Positions 24,412 through 44,274 of a stretch of 64,000 nucleotides of DNA are shown here, piece after piece. The notes under the pieces are model-generated. The model was not told the DNA's origin. It saw only the letters and a list, made by a program, of their open reading frames with translations, and ran no database searches. Position 1 is the stretch's first letter. The number at the start of each line of letters is the position of its first letter. This stretch comes from Acidobacteriota bacterium. Its GTDB lineage: Bacteria; Acidobacteriota; Vicinamibacteria; Vicinamibacterales; SCN-69-37. The position numbers and the translations under genes were made by a program. The DNA lies in assembly GCA_020853395.1 (NCBI GenBank), contig JADYYY010000004.1:62001-126000 (forward strand), written 5' to 3'.

Positions 24412-24427
24412 TATGACGGCCATCATA
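24412..24427. promoter_or_regulatory. Crp/Fnr-type palindrome TATGAC-N4-ATCATA (site 2)
   Basis: TATGAC-ggcc-ATCATA, one mismatch from the ideal palindrome, 24 bp after the helicase stop and 156 bp upstream of the cytochrome c start. No good -10 lies at the 29.5-bp distance seen at other sites; a TATGAT hexamer at 24503-24508 is the most likely -10 of the cytochrome gene, which would put this site near -95. Confidence 0.55.
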
Positions 24428-24583: not shown

Positions 24584-24922
24584 ATGAGAGTTCGGATGTT
24601 CGCATTCACCATGGCCGGGGCGCTCGCCTTGGCGTCGTCCGCGGCGGCCGCGCCGATTACCGACGCGCAGGCGACGGCGATCTTGACCAAGGCCGGCTGC
24701 ACGATCTGCCACAGCGTCGACAAGAAGCTGGTCGGCCCGTCCTATCTCGAGGTCGCGAAGAAGCACAAGGGAGACAAGACGGCACCGGCGACGCTTCCCG
24801 ACAAGATCCGCAAGGGCGGCACGGGCGTCTACGGCGCGATTCCGATGCCTCCGAACCCTCCCGACAAGATCAACGACGCCGACCTGAAGGCGCTCGTGGA
24901 GTGGATCCTCTCCAAGGCCTGA
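24584..24922 (+). CDS. class I c-type cytochrome (c551/c552-like)
   Basis: A 112-residue periplasmic monoheme cytochrome. Signal peptide 1-22; the heme motif is CTICH (about residues 37-41) and the Met ligand lies in IPMPPNPP, as in cytochromes c551/c552. After cleavage the mature protein is about 90 residues, the normal size. It is a soluble electron carrier, plausibly between the respiratory chain and terminal reductases encoded in this region. ATG at 24584 is supported by AAGGAG 7 nt upstream and by the signal peptide; an upstream in-frame ATG at 24515 lies exactly 6 nt after TATGAT but would add an unrelated tail. Regulation by the palindrome at 24412 is suggested. Confidence 0.9.
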   Translation: MRVRMFAFTMAGALALASSAAAAPITDAQATAILTKAGCTICHSVDKKLVGPSYLEVAKKHKGDKTAPATLPDKIRKGGTGVYGAIPMPPNPPDKINDADLKALVEWILSKA

Positions 24923-25714: not shown

Positions 25715-25798
25715 CGTCGCGCTATCGCGCGATGGGATCGCTCGTCGCGCTATCGCGCGACGAGATCACCCGTCGCGCTATCGCGCGACGAGGACGGG
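25715..25798. repeat. 28-bp tandem repeat with hairpin core, three copies
   Basis: Copies start at 25715, 25743 and 25771, exactly 28 bp apart. Each has GTCGCGC-TATC-GCGCGA(C/T), a 7-bp stem (6 bp in the first copy) with a 4-nt loop. The third copy encodes the last codons and stop of the universal stress protein gene. Three hairpins in a row between convergent genes could end transcription from both sides. Confidence 0.85.
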
Positions 25799-26662
25799 AA
25801 CGGGGCACCGATTGAGGGCTCCCTCCGCTACGCTGCCGAGCAGCAGGTAGCGCGCGCCGCTCGTGCCCCGCGCGCCGACCACCAGCAGTTGCGCCCGCGT
25901 GCTGGCCACGGTGCGGAGCAGATCCCGCAGCGGCTCGCCGCTCGTGAGCACGGTGCTCGTCTGCCATCCGGCCCGCTCGAGCGCTGCGGCGGCCTGTTCG
26001 AGCGCCCGCAGTGCTGCCTTGCCTCGGCGGGTGTTCGTGCGTTTCACTTCGCGCACCACGATGCGGGCACCGGGCACGAACGTCCGCGACGGCACGGGCA
26101 TCAACTCGACGGCGTGCGCGAGCACGACGCGCCCGTGCGGGGGCGGCGTCAGCCTCCCCACGAACGCCAGCGCGCGCTTCGCCATGGCGGATCCATCGAA
26201 CGCCACGACGATTCTCCGCACGCGCGTCGAACGACGGACGACGAGCACCGGACACGTGGCGCCTCGGACGACCCCGCGAGAGACGCTGCCCATGAGCAAC
26301 CGCTGCAGCGCGCCGTGGCCACGCCAGCCGAGCACGATCGCATCGGCCGCGAATCGTTTGGCCTCGTCGAGGATGCCCTCGACGGGCAGCGTGTCGACGA
26401 CAGCCGCCTCGACGTCGGGCCAGCGGCGAGCGAGCGTCCGCCGGGCGTTCTCGGCCGCGATCTCGGCGCTCCGATCGAGCGCGGCGAGCAGCATCGATGA
26501 CGTGTACGCCGCGCCGGTTCGCCGCGCCGCCACCACGCGCACGTGCGTTCGTGCCGGCCACGGGAAGTTCGCGGCGGTCGCGAGGACGCCGCGCGCACGA
26601 TCGGACCCATCAGTGGCGACGAGGAGCTTGAATGCCTTGGATCCAGCCATGTGGTGTGTCAT
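25778..26662 (-). CDS. tandem universal stress protein (two UspA domains)
   Basis: A 294-residue protein (or 290 from the Met at 26650) with two UspA domains. Domain 1 starts KLLVATDGSDRA and ends GWRGHGALQRLLMGSVSRGVVRGATCPVLVVR; domain 2 starts RIVVAFDGSAMAKRAL and ends GARGTSGARYLLLGSVAEGALNRCPVPVLVAR. Both keep the G-x2-G-x9-G-S ATP-binding pattern. Such proteins aid survival under oxygen limitation and energy stress. It lies 31 bp downstream of the Crp/Fnr gene on the same strand and probably shares its transcript, linking it to the respiratory regulon. Its last codons are inside a 28-bp tandem repeat. Confidence 0.92.
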   Translation of the reverse strand: MTHHMAGSKAFKLLVATDGSDRARGVLATAANFPWPARTHVRVVAARRTGAAYTSSMLLAALDRSAEIAAENARRTLARRWPDVEAAVVDTLPVEGILDEAKRFAADAIVLGWRGHGALQRLLMGSVSRGVVRGATCPVLVVRRSTRVRRIVVAFDGSAMAKRALAFVGRLTPPPHGRVVLAHAVELMPVPSRTFVPGARIVVREVKRTNTRRGKAALRALEQAAAALERAGWQTSTVLTSGEPLRDLLRTVASTRAQLLVVGARGTSGARYLLLGSVAEGALNRCPVPVLVAR

Positions 26663-26693
26663 CCACGGCGGCGCGCCGTGCCGCCGCCAGCGC

Positions 26694-27383
26694 CTAGCCG
26701 GCCGCCAGGCTCTCGAGCGACGCGCGGTCCACGAGCACGAACCCGTCCTTCTCCGTGCGCAGCAGGTCTTCCTTGCCCCAGCGGCTCATGATGCGGATGC
26801 ACGTCTCGACGGTCGTCCCCGTGAGGTCCGCCAGCTCCTGCCGCGACAGCGGCAGCGGGATGAAGAGCGCGCCGTCCTGCTGGCGGCCGAGCTGATCGGC
26901 GAGCTTCAGGAATAGCCGTGCGAACCGAGACTCAGCCCGGCCGCCGGTGAGGTCGGTGAGCCTTGTCGTCAACTCGACGAGCCGCATCGAGAGGCTGCCC
27001 AGCAGGCCGCGCACGAGCGACGGGTGATCCTCGAGCAGCCGGAAGAAGTCCTGGCGTGGTATCAGCAGGCAACTGGTCGATTCGATGGCCTGCGCGGAGG
27101 CCGGGTACGGCCGGGACTCGTACGCGGCGACGGCGCCGAGCGGCCCTCCGGGTCCGAACATCTCGAGGATCACGTCGCTGCCCGACATGCTGTGCTTGAA
27201 CACCTTCACCCGTCCCGTGATGACGATGAAGAAGTAGTCGGAGGCGTCCCCCTCCTCGAAGACGGCGTCGCCGCGCTCGTAGCTGCGGACGAACGACACC
27301 GCGGCGACGCGGGCCCGATCCTCGGCCGACACCCGGCGGAAGAGCGGAATCTGGGCGAGAACGGACGGCTCTGGGCGCAGCAC
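26694..27383 (-). CDS. Crp/Fnr-family transcriptional regulator
   Basis: A 229-residue regulator: cyclic-nucleotide-type sensor domain (about 10-120), dimer helix (122-145) and winged HTH (150-215). Only Cys105 and Cys195 are present, so the N-terminal Fe-S cluster of FNR is absent; sensing by heme/NO as in DNR-type proteins is possible, but not shown. The recognition helix TTVETCIRIM keeps the FNR-like Glu193 and Arg197 that read the TGA core, with Ile196 in place of the FNR Ser that selects TTGA. This fits the A-TGA-C half-sites found nearby. GTG start; TATGAT at 27392-27397 lies 8 nt upstream. It is flanked by genes for the universal stress protein and RIC, next to the nar operon. Confidence 0.92.
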   Translation of the reverse strand: MLRPEPSVLAQIPLFRRVSAEDRARVAAVSFVRSYERGDAVFEEGDASDYFFIVITGRVKVFKHSMSGSDVILEMFGPGGPLGAVAAYESRPYPASAQAIESTSCLLIPRQDFFRLLEDHPSLVRGLLGSLSMRLVELTTRLTDLTGGRAESRFARLFLKLADQLGRQQDGALFIPLPLSRQELADLTGTTVETCIRIMSRWGKEDLLRTEKDGFVLVDRASLESLAAG

Positions 27384-27425: not shown

Positions 27426-28157
27426 TCAGTTCGCCAAACCTTCGAGCGCGATCGCACCAGGGAACAGCACGTCGTTCTCGAGCCGGACGTGCTGGACGAG
27501 ATCCTGCTCGAAGCGGGCGAGCTCCTCGTAGCAGCGGCTGTGCGTCGGGCTCGCCCCCGCCGGCACGGCGTACCCGTGCGTGAGCGCGCTCAGCTTCGTC
27601 ATGAGCGATTCCGCCTCGAAGTGGTCCGCCTCCATGACGCGAATCGGGTTGAGCAGCGTGCCGAAGGGGCCGGCCGACGGCCGGGTGCCCGCCCGGGCTG
27701 CGGCCGCCATCTCGTGGATGAACGGAAAGAGGATGTGCTCTTCCTTCACCATGTGCGGTCCGAGTGCGTCGCTGAGACTGCGGAAGATCTCGCGGACGTC
27801 GGCGAACTCGGGGTGCGCGTCGATCTCCTGTTCGACGAGGCTGTCGAGCCAGCCGCGGATGCGCGGCGTGCTCTCGCGGACGTACTGGTGATGACGCTCG
27901 ACGATGTGCCGGATCAGCTCGTCGAGCCCCTCGCCGGCGCGTCCCGTGGCACGCAGGCCGGCCGACTGGAGCGCCTGCACCACGGTATCGACGCCGACAC
28001 CCCTGGCAGCGGCGGCCTCCTGCAGCGTCTGGTGCCCTGACCGCTCGTAGTCGAAGCCCAACTGTTCGAAGACGGTCGCCGCGCGGAAATCGCGGGCGAC
28101 GAGCTCTCCGAGCGTCCGGCGTGCGAGCTCCGTCTGGTCCGAGGAGCTCGTGTTCAC
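27426..28157 (-). CDS. RIC-type hemerythrin protein (iron-sulfur cluster repair, di-iron)
   Basis: A 243-residue protein of the Ric/YtfE/ScdA family. Residues 10-65 are the ScdA-N/DUF542 domain (LGELVARDFRAATVFEQLGFDYERSGHQTLQEAA; the usual Cys-rich motif is reduced). Residues 80-235 are a hemerythrin bundle with RHHQYVRE, PHMVKEEHILFPFIHEM, EADHFEAE and HVRLENDVLFP, which supply the His/Glu di-iron ligands. It repairs Fe-S clusters damaged by NO or oxidants. GTG at 28157 is taken as the start because it precedes the first conserved helix; the longer open frame upstream lacks family signal. The palindrome at 28232-28247 with -10 TACCCT lies in its promoter. Confidence 0.88.
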   Translation of the reverse strand: MNTSSSDQTELARRTLGELVARDFRAATVFEQLGFDYERSGHQTLQEAAAARGVGVDTVVQALQSAGLRATGRAGEGLDELIRHIVERHHQYVRESTPRIRGWLDSLVEQEIDAHPEFADVREIFRSLSDALGPHMVKEEHILFPFIHEMAAAARAGTRPSAGPFGTLLNPIRVMEADHFEAESLMTKLSALTHGYAVPAGASPTHSRCYEELARFEQDLVQHVRLENDVLFPGAIALEGLAN

Positions 28158-28204: not shown

Positions 28205-28247
28205 AGGGTACGGGCGAGCCGGCACGGGCGTTATGACGGCCGTCATA
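28205..28247 (-). promoter_or_regulatory. Crp/Fnr-type palindrome TATGACG-GC-CGTCATA (site 3) and -10 of RIC gene
   Basis: A perfect 16-bp palindrome at 28232-28247, centre 28239.5. On the minus strand TACCCT (28205-28210) begins 29.5 bp from the centre, putting the site at -41.5 relative to a predicted start near 28198. This serves the RIC gene, whose GTG lies 41 nt further on. Confidence 0.65.
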
Positions 28248-28321: not shown

Positions 28322-28364
28322 TATGACAGGCGTCATATCGCGGCGCGCCAGGGAATCCTACAGT
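28322..28364 (+). promoter_or_regulatory. Crp/Fnr-type palindrome TATGAC-N4-GTCATA (site 4) and -10 of nar operon
   Basis: TATGAC-aggc-GTCATA at 28322-28337 (arms extend one base each side), centre 28329.5. TACAGT at 28359-28364 begins 29.5 bp from the centre on the plus strand; the predicted start is near 28371, so the site is at -41.5, the class II Fnr/Crp position. No -35 hexamer is needed in that arrangement. It would drive narC and the genes behind it. Confidence 0.7.
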
Positions 28365-28428
28365 GCTGGCGATTCGCGACACGCGGCACGCGAGCGCGGT
28401 GATCGCAGCCCTTCGGAAGGAGCGACGA

Positions 28429-29285
28429 GTGACCGCACCTCACGTGACGATCCTCTGGCGGTGGCGGGCGTTGCTGGCTGCCGGACTGGCGCTCGGCGTG
28501 GCACACAGCGCCGCGGCGCAGATGCCTCCCGCCTCGACGTTCTTCCAGCAGAACTGCGCGGCCTGCCACACCATCGGCGGCGGCGCGCTCGTCGGACCGG
28601 ACTTGAAAGGTGCCACGGAGCGTCACGAGCGCGCGTGGCTCATCCGCTTCATCGAGAACCCGAAGGCGGTCGTCGACGCCGGCGATCCAGCGGCCAAGGC
28701 GATGGTCGACGCGGCCGGTGGCCTGGTGATGCCGCAGATTGCGGGCATGACGCCGCAGATGGCGGAGGCGCTGGTCGACATGATTGCCGGAGGCGCCAGC
28801 CAGGCGCCAGCCGGGCCGTCGGTCACCGATCGCGCCTTCACGGCCGCCGACGTCGAGCACGGCCGGCGCCTGTTCAACGGCACGGAACGCCTCCAGAACG
28901 GCGGACCGGCGTGCCTGGCCTGTCACAACGCCGGCGCGGGTGAGGGCATGGGCGGTGGCCGGCTCGGTCCGGATCTCACGACCGTCTACGACCGGCTGAA
29001 GGGGCGCAAGGCGCTCGGGATGTGGCTGTCGGCTCCGGCGACGACCACGATGCGGTCCCTCTTCGCCGCACGCGCGTTCACGCCGGAGGAAATCGAAGCG
29101 CTCCTGGCGTACTTCGAGGACGCCGCCACGCGGCCGGCGTCGCCGAGCGGGCCGTCGCTCGCGTTTCTCGCGGCAGGGAGCGTGGGCGCGATCGCCGGGC
29201 TCGTGCTGTTCGCATTTCACTGGCGCGGCCGGCTCCGCGCGGTCCGCCGCCGGCTCGTCGAGACGGCGACGTCGGGAGGCACACG

Positions 29286-29289
<4 letters not shown>
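28429..29289 (+). CDS. narC: membrane-anchored diheme cytochrome c, NarC-like
   Basis: A 286-residue protein with an N-terminal signal (residues 8-31), two class I heme domains with CAACH (Cys43-His47) and CLACH (Cys162-His166), and one C-terminal membrane helix (about 244-265). As the first gene of a nar operon it matches the position and build of the Thermus NarC cytochrome, which is needed for assembly of, and electron transfer within, the nitrate reductase complex; that equivalence is inferred from context and architecture. GTG at 28429 follows AAGGAG by 7 nt; an earlier ATG at 28363 lies upstream of the predicted transcription start. Its stop overlaps the narG start (ATGA), so translation is coupled. 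Confidence 0.82.
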
Positions 29290-32933
<3,644 letters not shown>

Positions 32934-32948: not shown

Positions 32949-34442
32949 ATGATGGACGTCCGTTCTCAGATCGCCATGGTGTTCCACCTCGACAAGTGCA
33001 TCGGGTGCCACACCTGCAGCATCGCGTGCAAGAACATCTGGACCGATCGCAAGGGCACCGAGTACATGTGGTGGAACAACGTCGAGACGAAGCCCGGCAC
33101 GGGGTTCCCCACGCGGTGGGAGGACCAGGAGTCGTACCAGGGCGGCTGGCACGTGGTCGACGGCAAGCTGCAGCTCCGCTCCACCGACAAGGCCCGCACG
33201 GTCACGAACATCTTCCATCATCCGCACATGCCGACGATGGACGACTACTACGAGCCGTGGACGTACGACTACCAGCACCTGTTCAACGCGCCCGAGGGTG
33301 ACGATCAGCCCACGGCCATCCCCGTGTCGATGGTCACGGGCCAGCCGATCGACATCAAAGCCGGCCCGAACTGGGACGACGACCTCGGCGGATCGAACGT
33401 GTACGCCGAGCACGATCGGAACCTCGACGGGCTCTCGCCCGACCAGCGGCAACAACTGTTCGCGATCGAGCGGCTGGTCTTCTTCTACTTTCCGCGCATC
33501 TGCAATCACTGCCTGAACCCGTCGTGCGTGGCCTCGTGCCCGTCGGGCGCCCTGTACAAGCGCGGCGAGGACGGCATCGTGCTGCTCGACCAGACGCGGT
33601 GCCGTGGCTGGCGGTCGTGCATCTCCGCCTGCCCGTACAAGAAGACGTTCTACAACTGGCAGACCGGCAAGTCCGAGAAGTGCATCCTCTGCTTCCCCAG
33701 GCTCGAGACCGGCCAGGCGCCCGCCTGCTTCCACTCCTGCGTCGGCCGGATCCGGTACCTCGGCGTGCTGCTCTACGACGCCTCGCGCATCGAGGCCATC
33801 GCGTCCATGAAGGAGGAGGATCTGGTCGAAGGGCACCGGTCGATGATCCTCGACCCGTTCGACCCGGCGGTCATCGCGGCCGCGCGCGCGAACGGCATCC
33901 AGGACGACGTCATCGAGTCCGCCCAGCGGTCGCCCGTCTACAAGTTCGTGAAGGTCTGGCGCGTGGCCCTGCCTCCGCACATCGAGTACCGCACGCTGCC
34001 GATGCTGTTCTACGTTCCGCCGATGTCACCCGTGATGGCCCAGCGCACGAACGGGGTCGTCGAGCACGTGCCGGGCGACTTCTTCCACGACATCGACTCC
34101 GCACGCGTGCCGATGAAGTTCCTCGCCAACCTGTTCGGAGCGGGGCACGACGGCCAGGTCCGCTACGCCCTGCGCAAGCAGAAGGCCGTGCGCTGGTACC
34201 GGCGCGCGGTCACGGTCGGCGACATCACCATGGAGACGGCCGAACGCATGCTGCGGGAAGCCGACTGCACGCCCGACGAGGCCGAAGCCATCTACCGGCT
34301 GACGTCGCTCTGCACGTTCGACGACCGCTTCGTCATCCCGCCGATGCACCGCGAGCAGGCGATCGAGATGCTCAAGGATCCGCACGAGCACAAACAGGCG
34401 GCAGGCTTCGGCTTCCTTTCCGGCCCGCGGAGGGGACTATGA
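32949..34442 (+). CDS. narH: respiratory nitrate reductase iron-sulfur subunit (NarH)
   Basis: A 497-residue four-cluster ferredoxin-type protein. Cluster motifs: CIGCHTCSIACK (residues 17-28), CNHCLNPSCVASCPSGA, CRGWRSCISACPYKK, in which Trp replaces one Cys so that the site holds a [3Fe-4S] cluster as in known NarH, and CILCFPR...CFHSC. It wires NarI heme to NarG at the cytoplasmic membrane face. Two Met codons open the frame (32949 and 32952); GAAGGAG just upstream fits either. The stop overlaps the narJ start (ATGA 34439-34442). Confidence 0.96.
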   Translation: MMDVRSQIAMVFHLDKCIGCHTCSIACKNIWTDRKGTEYMWWNNVETKPGTGFPTRWEDQESYQGGWHVVDGKLQLRSTDKARTVTNIFHHPHMPTMDDYYEPWTYDYQHLFNAPEGDDQPTAIPVSMVTGQPIDIKAGPNWDDDLGGSNVYAEHDRNLDGLSPDQRQQLFAIERLVFFYFPRICNHCLNPSCVASCPSGALYKRGEDGIVLLDQTRCRGWRSCISACPYKKTFYNWQTGKSEKCILCFPRLETGQAPACFHSCVGRIRYLGVLLYDASRIEAIASMKEEDLVEGHRSMILDPFDPAVIAAARANGIQDDVIESAQRSPVYKFVKVWRVALPPHIEYRTLPMLFYVPPMSPVMAQRTNGVVEHVPGDFFHDIDSARVPMKFLANLFGAGHDGQVRYALRKQKAVRWYRRAVTVGDITMETAERMLREADCTPDEAEAIYRLTSLCTFDDRFVIPPMHREQAIEMLKDPHEHKQAAGFGFLSGPRRGL

Positions 34443-34981
34443 GCGGCGTGCGCGCGGGCGCGATCGTGCTGGCCGGACGGCTCCTCCATTACCCCGGCGA
34501 CGACTACCTCGACGACGTGCGGGCGTTCGCCGAGCTGGCACGGCAGCTCGGCGTCGAGACGATGTCGGAGCTGAAGGCGTTCGTCGCGGCGCTGGACGGA
34601 CGGTCGGTCGGCGAACTGCAGGAGCTGTTCACGCAGACGTTCGACCTCACGCCGAGCTGCGCGCTCGAGGTCGGCTGGCATCTCTTCGGCGAAGAGTACG
34701 AACGGGGAGCGTTCCTCGTCGACATGCGCGACGAGCTCCGCACCCATGCGATTCCCGAGGGCACCGAGCTGCCGGATCATCTCGGGTCGCTGCTCGCGCT
34801 GGTCATCCGGGTTGAACCGGGACGGGCGGCGACGCTCGTGTCCAAGGCGCTGCTCCCGGCGATCGACAAGATGCTCACGGGCCTCCGCGAAGCTGGCAGC
34901 CCGTTCGTCGCCGCCATGGACGCGATCCGGCAGGTCCTCACGGCCTACGCGCCGGGCTCACCGGAGGTCAGCCATGCTTGA
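34439..34981 (+). CDS. narJ: nitrate reductase assembly chaperone (NarJ)
   Basis: A 180-residue member of the TorD/NarJ chaperone family: helical, with LLHYPGDDYLDDVRAF at the N-terminus and the central YxxxFDLTPxxxLxxxxHLFG-like segment (FTQTFDLTPSCALEVGWHLFGE) typical of NarJ. It binds apo-NarG in the cytoplasm and permits Mo-cofactor insertion and membrane attachment. GGAGGGG? is not needed here: the ATG overlaps the narH stop and is reached by coupling, with AGGGG just upstream. The 3' end overlaps narI by 8 bp. Confidence 0.93.
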   Translation: MSGVRAGAIVLAGRLLHYPGDDYLDDVRAFAELARQLGVETMSELKAFVAALDGRSVGELQELFTQTFDLTPSCALEVGWHLFGEEYERGAFLVDMRDELRTHAIPEGTELPDHLGSLLALVIRVEPGRAATLVSKALLPAIDKMLTGLREAGSPFVAAMDAIRQVLTAYAPGSPEVSHA

Positions 34982-35675
34982 TGCGATCTATCTCGACGGC
35001 GTGCTCTTCGGCGTCCTGCCGTACGTCGCGCTCTTCACGTTCACGCTGGCGTCAATCCAGCGGTATCGGGGCCAGCCCTTCACCTACTCCAGCTTGTCGT
35101 CCCAGTTTCTCGAGAACCGGCAGCACTTCTACGGCATGGTGCCGTTCCACTACGGCATCCTCGTCGTGCTGGCCGGTCATCTCGTCGCGTTTCTCACGCC
35201 GTCGGCCCTGCTGGCCTGGAACCGGCAGCCGCTCAGACTCTACGTCCTCGAGGTCACGAGCCTGGCGTTCGGCCTGCTGACGCTGGCCGGCCTGGTCATG
35301 ATCATCCGCCGGCGCCGGACGTCGCCGCCGGTGCGGGTCGTGACGTCGAAGGCCGACTGGGTCGTGCTCGCGCTGCTCGCGCTGCAGGTCCTGACCGGGG
35401 TCTACACGGCCGTGGTCCATCCCTGGGGCTCGTCGTGGTTCGCGTCGATCCTCACGCCCTACCTGTGGTCGCTGGTTCGGCTCACTCCGGATCTGACCGC
35501 CGTCGCCGTGTTCCCGCTCGCGATCAAGCTGCACGTCATCAACGCCTTCCTGCTGATCCTGTTCTTCCCGTTCACCCGGCTCGTGCACGCGCTGGTCGTG
35601 CCCAATCCGTACCTCTGGCGCAAACCGCAGGTGGTTCGCTGGTACCGCCGCGCCGCCGGGCCGACTGCTCACTGA
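34974..35675 (+). CDS. narI: nitrate reductase cytochrome b subunit (NarI)
   Basis: A 233-residue five-helix membrane protein. Helices lie at about residues 8-28, 58-80, 92-113, 128-150 and 182-204. The heme b His ligands are in MVPFHYGILVVLAGHLVAF and IKLHVINAFLLILFFPFTRLVH, two His in each, as in NarI. It oxidises quinol on the periplasmic side and passes electrons to NarH. The ATG at 34974 overlaps the end of narJ and follows GGAGG. narK1 begins 12 bp downstream. Confidence 0.94.
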   Translation: MLDAIYLDGVLFGVLPYVALFTFTLASIQRYRGQPFTYSSLSSQFLENRQHFYGMVPFHYGILVVLAGHLVAFLTPSALLAWNRQPLRLYVLEVTSLAFGLLTLAGLVMIIRRRRTSPPVRVVTSKADWVVLALLALQVLTGVYTAVVHPWGSSWFASILTPYLWSLVRLTPDLTAVAVFPLAIKLHVINAFLLILFFPFTRLVHALVVPNPYLWRKPQVVRWYRRAAGPTAH

Positions 35676-41645: not shown

Positions 41646-42281
41646 CTACTTCACGAGCCGGTGCTCGAGCGCATAGCGCATGAGCTGGGCGTTGGAGGTC
41701 AGGCCCATCTTCTCGAGGATCCGCGTGCGGTAGGTGCTGACGGTCTTGACGCTCAGATCGAGCGTGGCCGCGATGTCGGAGACCGAGCGCGCCGCCGCGA
41801 GGAGCAGGAGCACCTCGTACTCGCGCGGAGACAGCAGCTCGTGGGGTGCGTCGGCGCCCGATCCTCCGATCGCCACGAAGTCCGCGATCTGTTCCGCCAC
41901 GTTCTCGCCGAGGTACCGCTTCCCCTGCAGCACGCTTCGAATCGCCCGCAGCAGCTCCTCGGGCGCCCGATCCTTGGTCAGGTAGGCCGAGACGCCGATC
42001 CGCAGCGCGCGCAGGATGAACTGCCGCTCCCCGTACATGCTGAGCACGACGATCGCGAGGCCGGGTTGCAGCCGCCTGAACTCGTCGACCCAGTCGAGGC
42101 TGTTGCGCTCGCCCAGCGCGATGTCGAGGACCAGCACCGACACCGGCGACGAGCGCAGGCGCTCGAGCACCTCCTCGCACGAGCTCGCCTCGTCGATCTC
42201 GGCGGTCGGGAACGCCTGGCTGACGATGCGGTGCAGGCCGGACCGCACGACCGGATGATCATCCGCCAGCAGGATGCGCAT
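41646..42281 (-). CDS. NarL/FixJ-type response regulator
   Basis: A 211-residue two-domain regulator: receiver domain 1-125 with acidic pocket Asp7/Asp8, phospho-acceptor Asp53 (VLVLDIALG) and Lys at YLTKDRAPEE; LuxR-type HTH 145-208 (LSPREYEVLLLLAAARSVSDIAATLDLSVKTVSTYRTRILEKMG). It overlaps the 3' end of the histidine kinase gene by 23 bp, so the two form a co-translated two-component pair. Target genes are not evident; the adjacent channel gene and the nar operon are candidates. Confidence 0.95.
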   Translation of the reverse strand: MRILLADDHPVVRSGLHRIVSQAFPTAEIDEASSCEEVLERLRSSPVSVLVLDIALGERNSLDWVDEFRRLQPGLAIVVLSMYGERQFILRALRIGVSAYLTKDRAPEELLRAIRSVLQGKRYLGENVAEQIADFVAIGGSGADAPHELLSPREYEVLLLLAAARSVSDIAATLDLSVKTVSTYRTRILEKMGLTSNAQLMRYALEHRLVK

Positions 42282-44061
42282 CGGCCCTCGCCATGGATGG
42301 TACCGGAACCGTCACGGTCAGCGTCGTGCCTTGTCCGGGCGCGCTCTGGATCGCCAGCACGCCGCTCACGAGCCGCGCGCGCTCCCGCATGCCGATGATC
42401 CCGAGCGATGTGGGGCTCTGGAGCGCCCCCGCGTCGGCCCCGATGCCATCGTCGTGGACCTCGAGGCGAAGGCCGCCGGGAATGGCGCACAGGCGCACAT
42501 CGGCCACCCGGGCGTGCGCGTGGCGCACGACGTTCGTCAAGGCCTCCTGCGCGATGCGAAACAGCGTGACGGCGATGGTCTCGTCGAGGTTCGCGGGAAC
42601 GCCGTCCGCCTCGATCTGGACGATGAGGTCGGTTCGGCTTTCGACTTCACGAGCCTGCCACTCCAGGGCGGGAATCAATCCCAGCTTGTCCAGGACGCCT
42701 GGACGCAGCTCCGACGAGATGCGGCGCACGAACTCGAGCGCGGTGGCGATCTGTTCGTTCATCGCCGCCACGCCGTCGCGGAGCTTCGTCGCGCAGGGCC
42801 GATCGCGCTCGTCGACGGGGCACGACGCGGTCAGGCCGACGAGGTCGAACTTCATGGAGGTCAGCAGTTGGCCGATCTGGTCGTGCAGCTCGCGGGAGAT
42901 TCTCGCCGCTTCGGCTTCACGTGCATCCTGGAGCGCGCCCGTCAGGCCACGGAGGGCCGCCTGCGCGTCGAGTGCTTCCTGATGCCGGCGGGCGAGCGAA
43001 TCGGCCATCGTGTTGAAGGCGCCGGCCAGCAGCGCCGACTCGTTGTGCCCGCGCGGCACCACGGCGCGCGCCGTGAGATCGCCGGCGCCGAAGAGCTGAG
43101 CCGTGCGGGCGAGCGACCGCAGCGCCCGCAAGAAGCCTACCTCCGCGGCCGCAAAGGCAGCGACAATCGTGACGAGCGTGAGCACCCCCAGGCCGACGAG
43201 CGTGCGATAGAACGCGGCGTTGGCGTCCTGGAGGACCTGTTCGTACGGAAGCGCGACGGCGACGAACAGCCCGGGCGCGCCGTCGAGCGGTGCAGCGACG
43301 ACGAACCGGTGCTCGCCGCCGATCGGGACGATCCGTCCATGCCCCGATTGCGCGATGTCCGCCGCGCCCTGGACGTCGAGCGCGCGCGCGCCGCCGCCGA
43401 TCTCGTCGCCGCCGTAGGCGAGCACGCGACCGGCCCGATCGGTGATCATCACCGAACCTCCATCCCGAGGTCCGCTCTCTCGGGCCACCGCCGACAGCCA
43501 ATCGAGATCGAGCCCCGTGAACGCCACGGAGGTGACGTGCCCGTCGCCGTCGCGCACCGCGTACGCGTGGTTCAGCGTCGGCCGGTCGAGAATGGGCGAA
43601 ATCGTGTAGGTGCCGGCTTCCACGCTGGTCGATTGGAGGGCGGCGGCGAATGCAGGGTTGTCGCGCCAGCTTCGGCGGCTCGCCAACGGGTAGGCACTCC
43701 GGATCACGGTGCCCTCGGGAGAGAGCACGCCGATGTTCGCGAGCTGCGGATGGCCGGCGAGCAGCGCCGGCAGGAAGTCCGGATCGCCGATGATCCTCGA
43801 CTGCGGCCCCTCGCGGGCCAGCCTCGTGCCGAGCCAGGCGAGCAGCTCCCGCGCGCCGCGAATCTGGTGCGCGTGCTCTCGGCTCGTCAGCCCCGCCAGG
43901 TGCAGCGCATCGCTCTCGGTTCGGGCGAGCGCCGCCTCACGCTCGTTCTCCGCGGCGTAGGCCGTGAAGAGCACCGCCGGCAGCGTCGCAAGACAGATCA
44001 GGAACAGCAGCTTGCCGCGAAGCGACCGGAACGGCCAGAGCGACCTCCGTGTCCGGCGCAT
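42259..44061 (-). CDS. membrane sensor histidine kinase (HisKA_3 / NarX-like class)
   Basis: A 600-residue kinase: membrane helix 16-36, a periplasmic PDC/Cache-type sensor (about 37-283), helix 284-305, HAMP (about 305-357), DHp with phospho-acceptor His393 in RISRELHDQIGQLL, and an HATPase domain with NVVRHAHA (N box), DDGIG and LGIIGMRERARLV (G boxes). Two Cys, 414 and 423, sit in the turn between DHp helices, an unusual place that could allow redox control. ATG at 44061 follows GGGGAG by 8 nt. The promoter at 44232-44274 has an ideal Crp/Fnr-type site, so the kinase seems to be part of the nitrate regulon. Confidence 0.93.
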   Translation of the reverse strand: MRRTRRSLWPFRSLRGKLLFLICLATLPAVLFTAYAAENEREAALARTESDALHLAGLTSREHAHQIRGARELLAWLGTRLAREGPQSRIIGDPDFLPALLAGHPQLANIGVLSPEGTVIRSAYPLASRRSWRDNPAFAAALQSTSVEAGTYTISPILDRPTLNHAYAVRDGDGHVTSVAFTGLDLDWLSAVARESGPRDGGSVMITDRAGRVLAYGGDEIGGGARALDVQGAADIAQSGHGRIVPIGGEHRFVVAAPLDGAPGLFVAVALPYEQVLQDANAAFYRTLVGLGVLTLVTIVAAFAAAEVGFLRALRSLARTAQLFGAGDLTARAVVPRGHNESALLAGAFNTMADSLARRHQEALDAQAALRGLTGALQDAREAEAARISRELHDQIGQLLTSMKFDLVGLTASCPVDERDRPCATKLRDGVAAMNEQIATALEFVRRISSELRPGVLDKLGLIPALEWQAREVESRTDLIVQIEADGVPANLDETIAVTLFRIAQEALTNVVRHAHARVADVRLCAIPGGLRLEVHDDGIGADAGALQSPTSLGIIGMRERARLVSGVLAIQSAPGQGTTLTVTVPVPSMARADAHPAGG

Positions 44062-44231
44062 GCGATCTCCCCTTCCGGCCCGAGCCTCGATGCGCCGATC
44101 CGACGACCACGCCTCGGTTCGGCGGCGCGGCTGGCCGCCCGCCGATGCCTGGCCGCGCGGCCCCGCGCGAGCGCCGCCGGCACGCCGGCACGCCGGCCGC
44201 ATCGCCGAAAGCGCGTGGCGCAGTCCCCGCC

Positions 44232-44274
44232 ATCATAGAGAACGACGTGTGCCGCCGCTATGATCGACGTCATA
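44232..44274 (-). promoter_or_regulatory. Crp/Fnr-type palindrome TATGAT-N4-GTCATA (site 5) and -10 of kinase operon
   Basis: TATGAT-cgac-GTCATA at 44259-44274 (one arm mismatch), centre 44266.5. On the minus strand TATGAT at 44232-44237 begins 29.5 bp from the centre, so the site is at -41.5 of a start near 44225. The -10 matches consensus in five of six bases. The leader to the kinase ATG is about 165 nt. Confidence 0.7.

Follow-up and report, generated by a model that had tools for sequence, protein, structure and literature searches.

Comparative genomics of a Crp/Fnr-family regulator and its proposed TATGAC box in Vicinamibacteria

The gene at 26694-27383 on the minus strand of the window (the whole 64 kb stretch of DNA that was analysed) encodes a 229-amino-acid Crp/Fnr-family regulator, which comparative genomics very likely pairs with the palindromic box TATGAC-N4-GTCATA. 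In Vicinamibacteria, a little-studied group of soil bacteria, regulator and box very probably represent a genuine Crp/Fnr subfamily that combines a box of its own with a denitrification (anaerobic nitrogen-oxide) regulon. It is highly probable, on sequence grounds, that the protein acts as a dimeric class II activator on this box and governs nitrogen-oxide respiration and repair. Sequence statistics underlie the gene-box association, the distinct box family of a paralogue, the fixed spacing from box to -10 element, and the identity of the targets. A difference from FNR within the recognition helix may account for the altered box. Acidobacteriota are abundant in soil and carry many nitrate, nitrite, and nitric oxide (NO) reductase genes; to our knowledge, the control of these genes is hardly known.

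The regulator and the boxes of the window

The regulator, whose residues are counted from a GTG start, consists of a cNMP-binding-like sensor domain and then a Crp-type HTH domain. Both domains score above the Pfam cut-off (PF00027, 81.6 bits; PF13545, 54.9 bits), which places the protein in the Crp/Fnr superfamily. Its gene is the middle one of a RIC(ScdA/YtfE)-crp-USP operon on the minus strand, and the divergent plus strand carries cytochrome c, narGHI, and transporter genes. The RIC gene product scores 160 bits against TIGR03652, below the cut-off of 204.7. The universal stress protein gene follows the regulator gene (25778-27383) as uspE follows fnr in E. coli (NC_000913 1397672-1399526). 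The genes and the helix are located as follows.

26694..27383, minus: Crp/Fnr-family regulator, proposed TATGAC-box reader (229 aa; Pfam cNMP_binding and HTH_Crp_2 above cut-off)
26772..26810, minus: recognition helix, residues 192-204, VETCIRIMSRWGK (helix sequence, FNR alignment, AlphaFold2 model)
26805-26807, 26796-26798 and 26793-26795, minus: helix codons of Glu193, Ile196 and Arg197, respectively
27426..28157, minus: RIC/YtfE/ScdA-type iron-sulfur repair di-iron protein, operon gene 1 (ScdA_N and Hemerythrin; start 28157 inferred)
25778..26662, minus: universal stress protein, operon gene 3 (PF00582)
28429..29289, plus: c-type cytochrome, first gene past the nar-side box (PF00034 on the longer ORF 28363-29289; start inferred)
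29304..32933, plus: NarG, nitrate reductase alpha subunit (PF00384, PF01568)
32949..34442, plus: NarH, nitrate reductase beta subunit (PF13247, PF14711)
34746..35675, plus: NarI, nitrate reductase gamma subunit (PF02665)
24584..24922, plus: small c-type cytochrome, gene following the 24412 box (longer ORF 24515-24922 matches PF00034)
42259..44202, minus: sensor histidine kinase with dCache, HAMP and HisKA_3, kinase domain NarX/NarQ/UhpB-like

In the nearby palindromes, TATGACNNNNGTCATA, the TGA core is preceded by A, and the box is written here as TATGAC-N4-GTCATA. With up to two mismatches, TATGACNNNNGTCATA occurs five times in the window against 0.33 expected, and none of 100 shuffles reached five. 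The two exact copies are located between the RIC-crp-USP and cytochrome c-nar units. The fifth site (1600, two mismatches) falls within an ORF and probably arose by chance; the other four are listed here.

28232..28247, minus: exact box TATGACGGCCGTCATA, promoter of the RIC-crp-USP operon (pattern scan; TANNNT 21 nt downstream)
28322..28337, plus: exact box TATGACAGGCGTCATA, promoter of the cytochrome c-nar cluster (pattern scan)
24412..24427, plus: one-mismatch box TATGACGGCCATCATA, upstream of a cytochrome c gene (-10 at canonical spacing absent)
44259..44274, minus: one-mismatch box TATGACGTCGATCATA, upstream of the NarX-like sensor kinase (pattern scan)

The 4.28 Mb genome to which the window belongs has four exact sites, against none for the control, and seven sites with at most one mismatch, four of which fall within the window. 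Box sites are spread over three contigs. Every site with at most one mismatch has A before TGA in each half, which bears out the statement of an earlier note on this DNA that the sites near the regulator gene have A at this base. The FNR box has a single one-mismatch match in the window, which is the chance level. A full-text literature search returned no paper with a TATGAC-N4-GTCATA box. Elsewhere in the genome, a two-mismatch site, TATGACAACGATCATG (L016, G000:C4:130800), has in its neighbourhood a multihaem cytochrome c7-type gene and an fdhD-like gene, the latter named by inspection; it may be a further target.

Association of the regulator gene with the box across the order

The comparison set comprised 149 genomes of the order, 55 with an ortholog of the regulator (55-75% identity) and 94 without. 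The exact box was present in 51 of the 55 ortholog-positive genomes and in 6 of the 94 ortholog-negative ones (Fisher p=3.7e-28). When labels were shuffled only within taxonomic families, the best of 20000 trials gave 38, and none (0/20000) reached the observed 51. The control pattern T[CGT]TGAC...GTCA[ACG]A, with any base except A before TGA, was not associated with the ortholog (25/55 vs 36/94, p=0.40); this is a direct test of the base that the earlier note had singled out. Boxes of the TBTGAC type, TGTGAC included, likewise had no association with the ortholog. The 149 genomes together hold 145 exact sites and only 2 matches to the reversed control pattern, which argues against chance palindromes.

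A de novo palindrome search around the orthologs, in which the box was not assumed, gave TATGAC as the top half-site, with 23 symmetric sites against at most one for any other half-site, and in 17 loci against a shuffle maximum of 5. Around the orthologs, A precedes the core TGACN4GTCA in 78 of 104 halves. The regulator gene is probably autoregulated, since a box lies within 300 bp upstream of it in 17 of 51 ortholog loci. The named orthologs belong to Acidobacteriota MAGs, several of them labelled Vicinamibacteria or Vicinamibacterales. The gene was also seen, at 64-67% identity like that of the Acidobacteriota orthologs, in records titled Bifidobacterium breve (L164) and Acidimicrobiia (L189), which are probably mislabelled MAGs.

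Three of the six genomes with a box and no detected ortholog (G058, G131, and G145) form one genus, g44. On the whole, the exceptions agree with the pairing of regulator and box. G131 encodes a 42% homolog with ETCIR, an E-x-x-I-R helix, and has 23 near-boxes against 0 for the control; G145 has 11 against 0. Among the four ortholog-positive genomes without an exact box, one-mismatch sites occur in G035 (1), G063 (1), and G074 (3), and G096, where the ortholog gene is partial, has neither exact nor one-mismatch boxes.

The genome of the window encodes one further Crp/Fnr protein over the Pfam cut-off (G000:C4:27748-28392; L005, L050), with the helix LYTVSR. Its gene is divergent from a second RIC gene, and thus both Crp/Fnr genes adjoin RIC genes. 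This arrangement, together with the six genomes that have boxes and no detected ortholog, would suit an explanation in which the LYTVSR paralogue or another regulator family reads the boxes and the gene association reflects genetic linkage. Such an explanation is extremely unlikely: the spread of sites over three contigs is not accounted for by linkage, the exception genome G131 carries the divergent E-x-x-I-R homolog, and the paralogue family has a conserved box of its own. TTGCG-N4-CGCAA was found in 19 of 21 loci of this family (helix L-Y/F-T-V-S-R), and TTGCGC-N2-GCGCAA in 17 loci against a shuffle maximum of 2-4. The copy in the present genome, TTTGCGATGGCGCAAA, lies between the paralogue and the second RIC gene. 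The genome-wide count of the paralogue box, TTGCGCNNGCGCAA, was not discriminating, as the GC-rich background is as high as the control. Moreover, no TATGAC box was found in the 12 genomes where only other Crp/Fnr proteins, the LYTVSR family among them, were detected. These findings indicate that regulator and paralogue each have their own box and that both boxes share one spacing. The claim of the earlier note that this protein reads the box is thus strongly supported by comparative genomics, and the paralogue, of the kind that it had allowed for as a competitor for the sites, goes with another box. Inspection of a third 'Crp' match in the genome (C19:53154) showed a winged-helix protein of another kind, not a Crp/Fnr. 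Other Crp/Fnr subfamilies of the order (RELVSR, ETVVR, RETVN) have too few loci for a box to be defined.

Promoter geometry and the predicted regulon

Among 70 unique exact sites, a TANNNT hexamer was found at a distance of exactly 21 nt from the 16-bp box 36 times, in 34 sites; other offsets had a mean of 0.43. It occurs nine times at the same offset from the paralogue box. For a start 7 nt after the hexamer, this spacing puts the centre of the box at -41.5, where FNR and CRP bind when they act as class II activators. The -10 elements are visible only when promoters are aligned on the boxes, and three are inferred in the window.

28205..28210, minus: TACCCT, RIC-crp-USP promoter (21-nt spacing, common to about half of the 70 sites)
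28359..28364, plus: TACAGT, nar promoter (21-nt spacing)
44232..44237, minus: TATGAT, kinase promoter (21-nt spacing)

A sigma-70 consensus scan of the window returned no promoter and no recognisable -35 at the box promoters. Both this absence and the 36 occurrences against 0.43 at the spacing of an activator centred on -41.5 speak against repression. Some Crp/Fnr sites do repress according to the literature, and the 24412 box has no -10 at the 21-nt activator spacing. Nevertheless, it is very unlikely that the boxes are chance palindromes or repressor sites and not activator sites. According to the preferred mechanism, a dimer of the Crp/Fnr-family protein would bind TATGAC-N4-GTCATA and, from -41.5, would recruit RNA polymerase as a class II activator.

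The predicted regulon would cover nitrate, nitrite, and nitric oxide respiration and repair, with RIC-crp-USP (autoregulation), cytochrome c-narGHI, the NarX-like kinase, and nirK elsewhere in the genome as its members. The small cytochrome c gene, a cytochrome b/Fe-S protein opposite a COX2-like gene, and a CbiX-TonB ORF are also predicted targets in this genome. The NirK target scores 360.6 bits against TIGR02376 (cut-off 296.3). This copper nitrite reductase (L010:1607-3016; site G000:C7:174048) has a C-terminal cytochrome c domain and lies downstream of a one-mismatch box. The CbiX-TonB gene (L004:1620-3014; site G000:C11:287440) is a single ORF with CbiX (sirohydrochlorin chelatase-like) and TonB-receptor plug domains, downstream of an exact box. 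In relatives, extra predicted targets are a NorB-type NO reductase (NorB domain) and haem/Fe-S electron carriers, and, named by inspection, a NarK-like transporter and a NirJ-like radical SAM gene. Box, reader, the contrasting box of the paralogue, and the fixed promoter spacing together provide a ready regulon predictor for this group.

The regulator has no cysteine before residue 105, and the N-terminal [4Fe-4S] cysteines of FNR are missing from it in the alignment with E. coli FNR. Because of this, and because RIC, nirK, and NO reductase are among the targets, the signal is most likely NO or another nitrogen oxide, or derived from nitrite. The Crp/Fnr proteins DNR, NNR, and NnrR activate nir, nor, and related genes in denitrifying proteobacteria and, like the regulator, do without iron-sulfur cysteines. 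The presence of boxes upstream of nirK, the nar cluster, and NO reductase suggests a comparable control of denitrification. The boxes differ: DNR uses TTGAT-N4-ATCAA (PMC1274295) and NnrR a TTG-type box (PMC6710368), both with T before TG, whereas the half-site here is ATGAC with A. HcpR1 of delta-proteobacteria has the box wyTTGACnnnnGTCAArw (PMC1274295). It shares the TGAC-N4-GTCA core with C at base 5, but has T before TGA, hcp/frdX targets, and Ser or Pro at the 180 position. HcpR proteins go with hcp/frdX targets and a CRP-, TTGAC- or GTAAC-type box; the present box is of another type, and no hcp was found among the recurrent box neighbours examined here.

Residue 196 and the base before the TGA core

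The helix region of the regulator reads G189 T T V E193 T C I196 R197 I M S R W, and an AlphaFold2 model (pLDDT 89) gives residues 192-204 as a single helix. V192, E193, I196, and R197 align with V208, E209, S212, and R213 of E. coli FNR (from NC_000913), as the earlier note had proposed for Glu193, Arg197, and Ile196. V192, E193, T194, and R197 are the same as in FNR (V208-E209-T210-I211-S212-R213), so that only 195 and 196 differ within V192-R197. E193, I196, and R197 are invariant across all orthologs. The regulator resembles FNR in its Crp/Fnr fold, V-E-T-x-x-R helix, TGA-core half-sites, 4-bp spacer (TTGAT-N4-ATCAA in FNR), class II geometry, anaerobic respiration targets, and universal stress gene neighbour (uspE in E. 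coli). It differs in being only 19% identical, in lacking the N-terminal cysteine cluster, in Ile for Ser212, in an ATGAC and not a TTGAT box, and in an NCBIfam Fnr score of 44.9 against a cut-off of 228. Its E-x-x-I-R thus replaces the E-x-x-S-R that accompanies TTGAT-N4-ATCAA. Nor does it match CRP, which has Arg180 and the box TGTGA-N6-TCACA: Val192 stands at the aligned position, and TBTGAC boxes, TGTGAC included, show no association.

At the residue level, the TGA core would be read by Arg197 and Glu193 in the manner of FNR. Ile196, which stands where FNR has Ser212, would favour A (T on the other strand) before TGA, possibly by hydrophobic packing against the methyl group of the thymine. 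That Ile196 selects this A is plausible but unproven, and its chances are put a little short of even. Four E-x-x-I-R branches have A before TGA: the orthologs, whose clade includes members from Thermoanaerobaculia, Rokubacteria, and Myxococcota; the homolog of genus g44; a rare third Crp/Fnr subfamily, METTIR/LESAIR (L240-L243; 4/193 genomes of the class), whose gene is preceded by ATGA-N6-TCAT in 4/4 loci; and Dehalococcoidia, with 10 sites against 0 for the control in one genome. Furthermore, Ser196 pairs with T in the paralogue and Ile196 with A in the regulator. It can be hypothesized, about as tentatively, that the Crp/Fnr code has a third specificity position at 196 (CRP 184, FNR 212), where Ile selects A; the ATGA-reading branch so defined would extend over Acidobacteriota, Myxococcota, Rokubacteria, and Chloroflexi and would include the denitrification activator of Vicinamibacteria.

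The Nitrospirota homologs do not follow this pattern. They share E, I, and R, but K-F/L replaces R-W at 201-202. ATGACN4GTCAT occurs 55 times against 37 for the control in 18 of their genomes, with no clear TATGAC regulon. Neither alignment nor a de novo search revealed ATGA or another palindrome upstream of these genes (L198-L221), which seem to lie inside a conserved operon. Therefore, either E193, I196, and R197 are not sufficient, or these proteins have few sites. The proposed E-x-x-I-R/ATGAC subfamily accordingly holds for the orthologs, with the residues in all of them and the box in 51 of 55 genomes, and fails for the Nitrospirota relatives. The tree groups the E-x-x-I-R proteins almost into a single clade; the joint change of Ile196 and A therefore counts about once and is inseparable from other changes of the clade, for example that of box base 5 from T in FNR to C. 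Hence, of the paired protein/DNA change put forward in the earlier note, the reading of the box by this regulator stands, and selection of A by Ile196 is the unproven step; same-helix homologs keep A in four branches and lack a clear ATGAC regulon in Nitrospirota.

It is quite possible, though with clearly less than an even chance, that the regulator reads the box while A is set by residue 192, by packing through 195 or Trp202, or by indirect readout, and that Ile196 is incidental. The Nitrospirota proteins and the single origin of E-x-x-I-R favour this reading. FixK2 Leu195 presumably occupies the 192 position. It contacts a thymine (PMC9104804). In the CprK structure, the conservation of the outer T-T/A-A is attributed to indirect readout (PMC2610375). 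In PMC1274295, the base before TGA is correlated with CRP residue 180 (192 here; R180-G3) and not with 184 (196 here). Thus, the Ser of FNR, which the earlier note took as the selector of the preceding base, is one of two candidate positions, and this literature ties the base to the other. A limited full-text search found no paper on FNR E209/S212/R213. Against the role of residue 192, V is present in both the regulator (A box) and FNR (T box), and L in both the paralogue (T box) and two LESAIR members (A box). Residue 192 alone therefore does not predict the base, whereas residue 196 does in the families compared. For the Crp/Fnr field, the regulator is a natural near-mutant of FNR, with V-E-T..R the same and residue 196 and the base different, suited to a test of a third code position.

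The co-evolution rule of Rodionov et al. 2005 (PMC1274295) couples R180 with G3 and E181 with A6; the available part of that paper correlates no base with position 184 and has no entry of A at base 3. Glu193 with the A of TGA fits this rule, and so does Y/F193 of the paralogue family with the TGC of its TTGC box.
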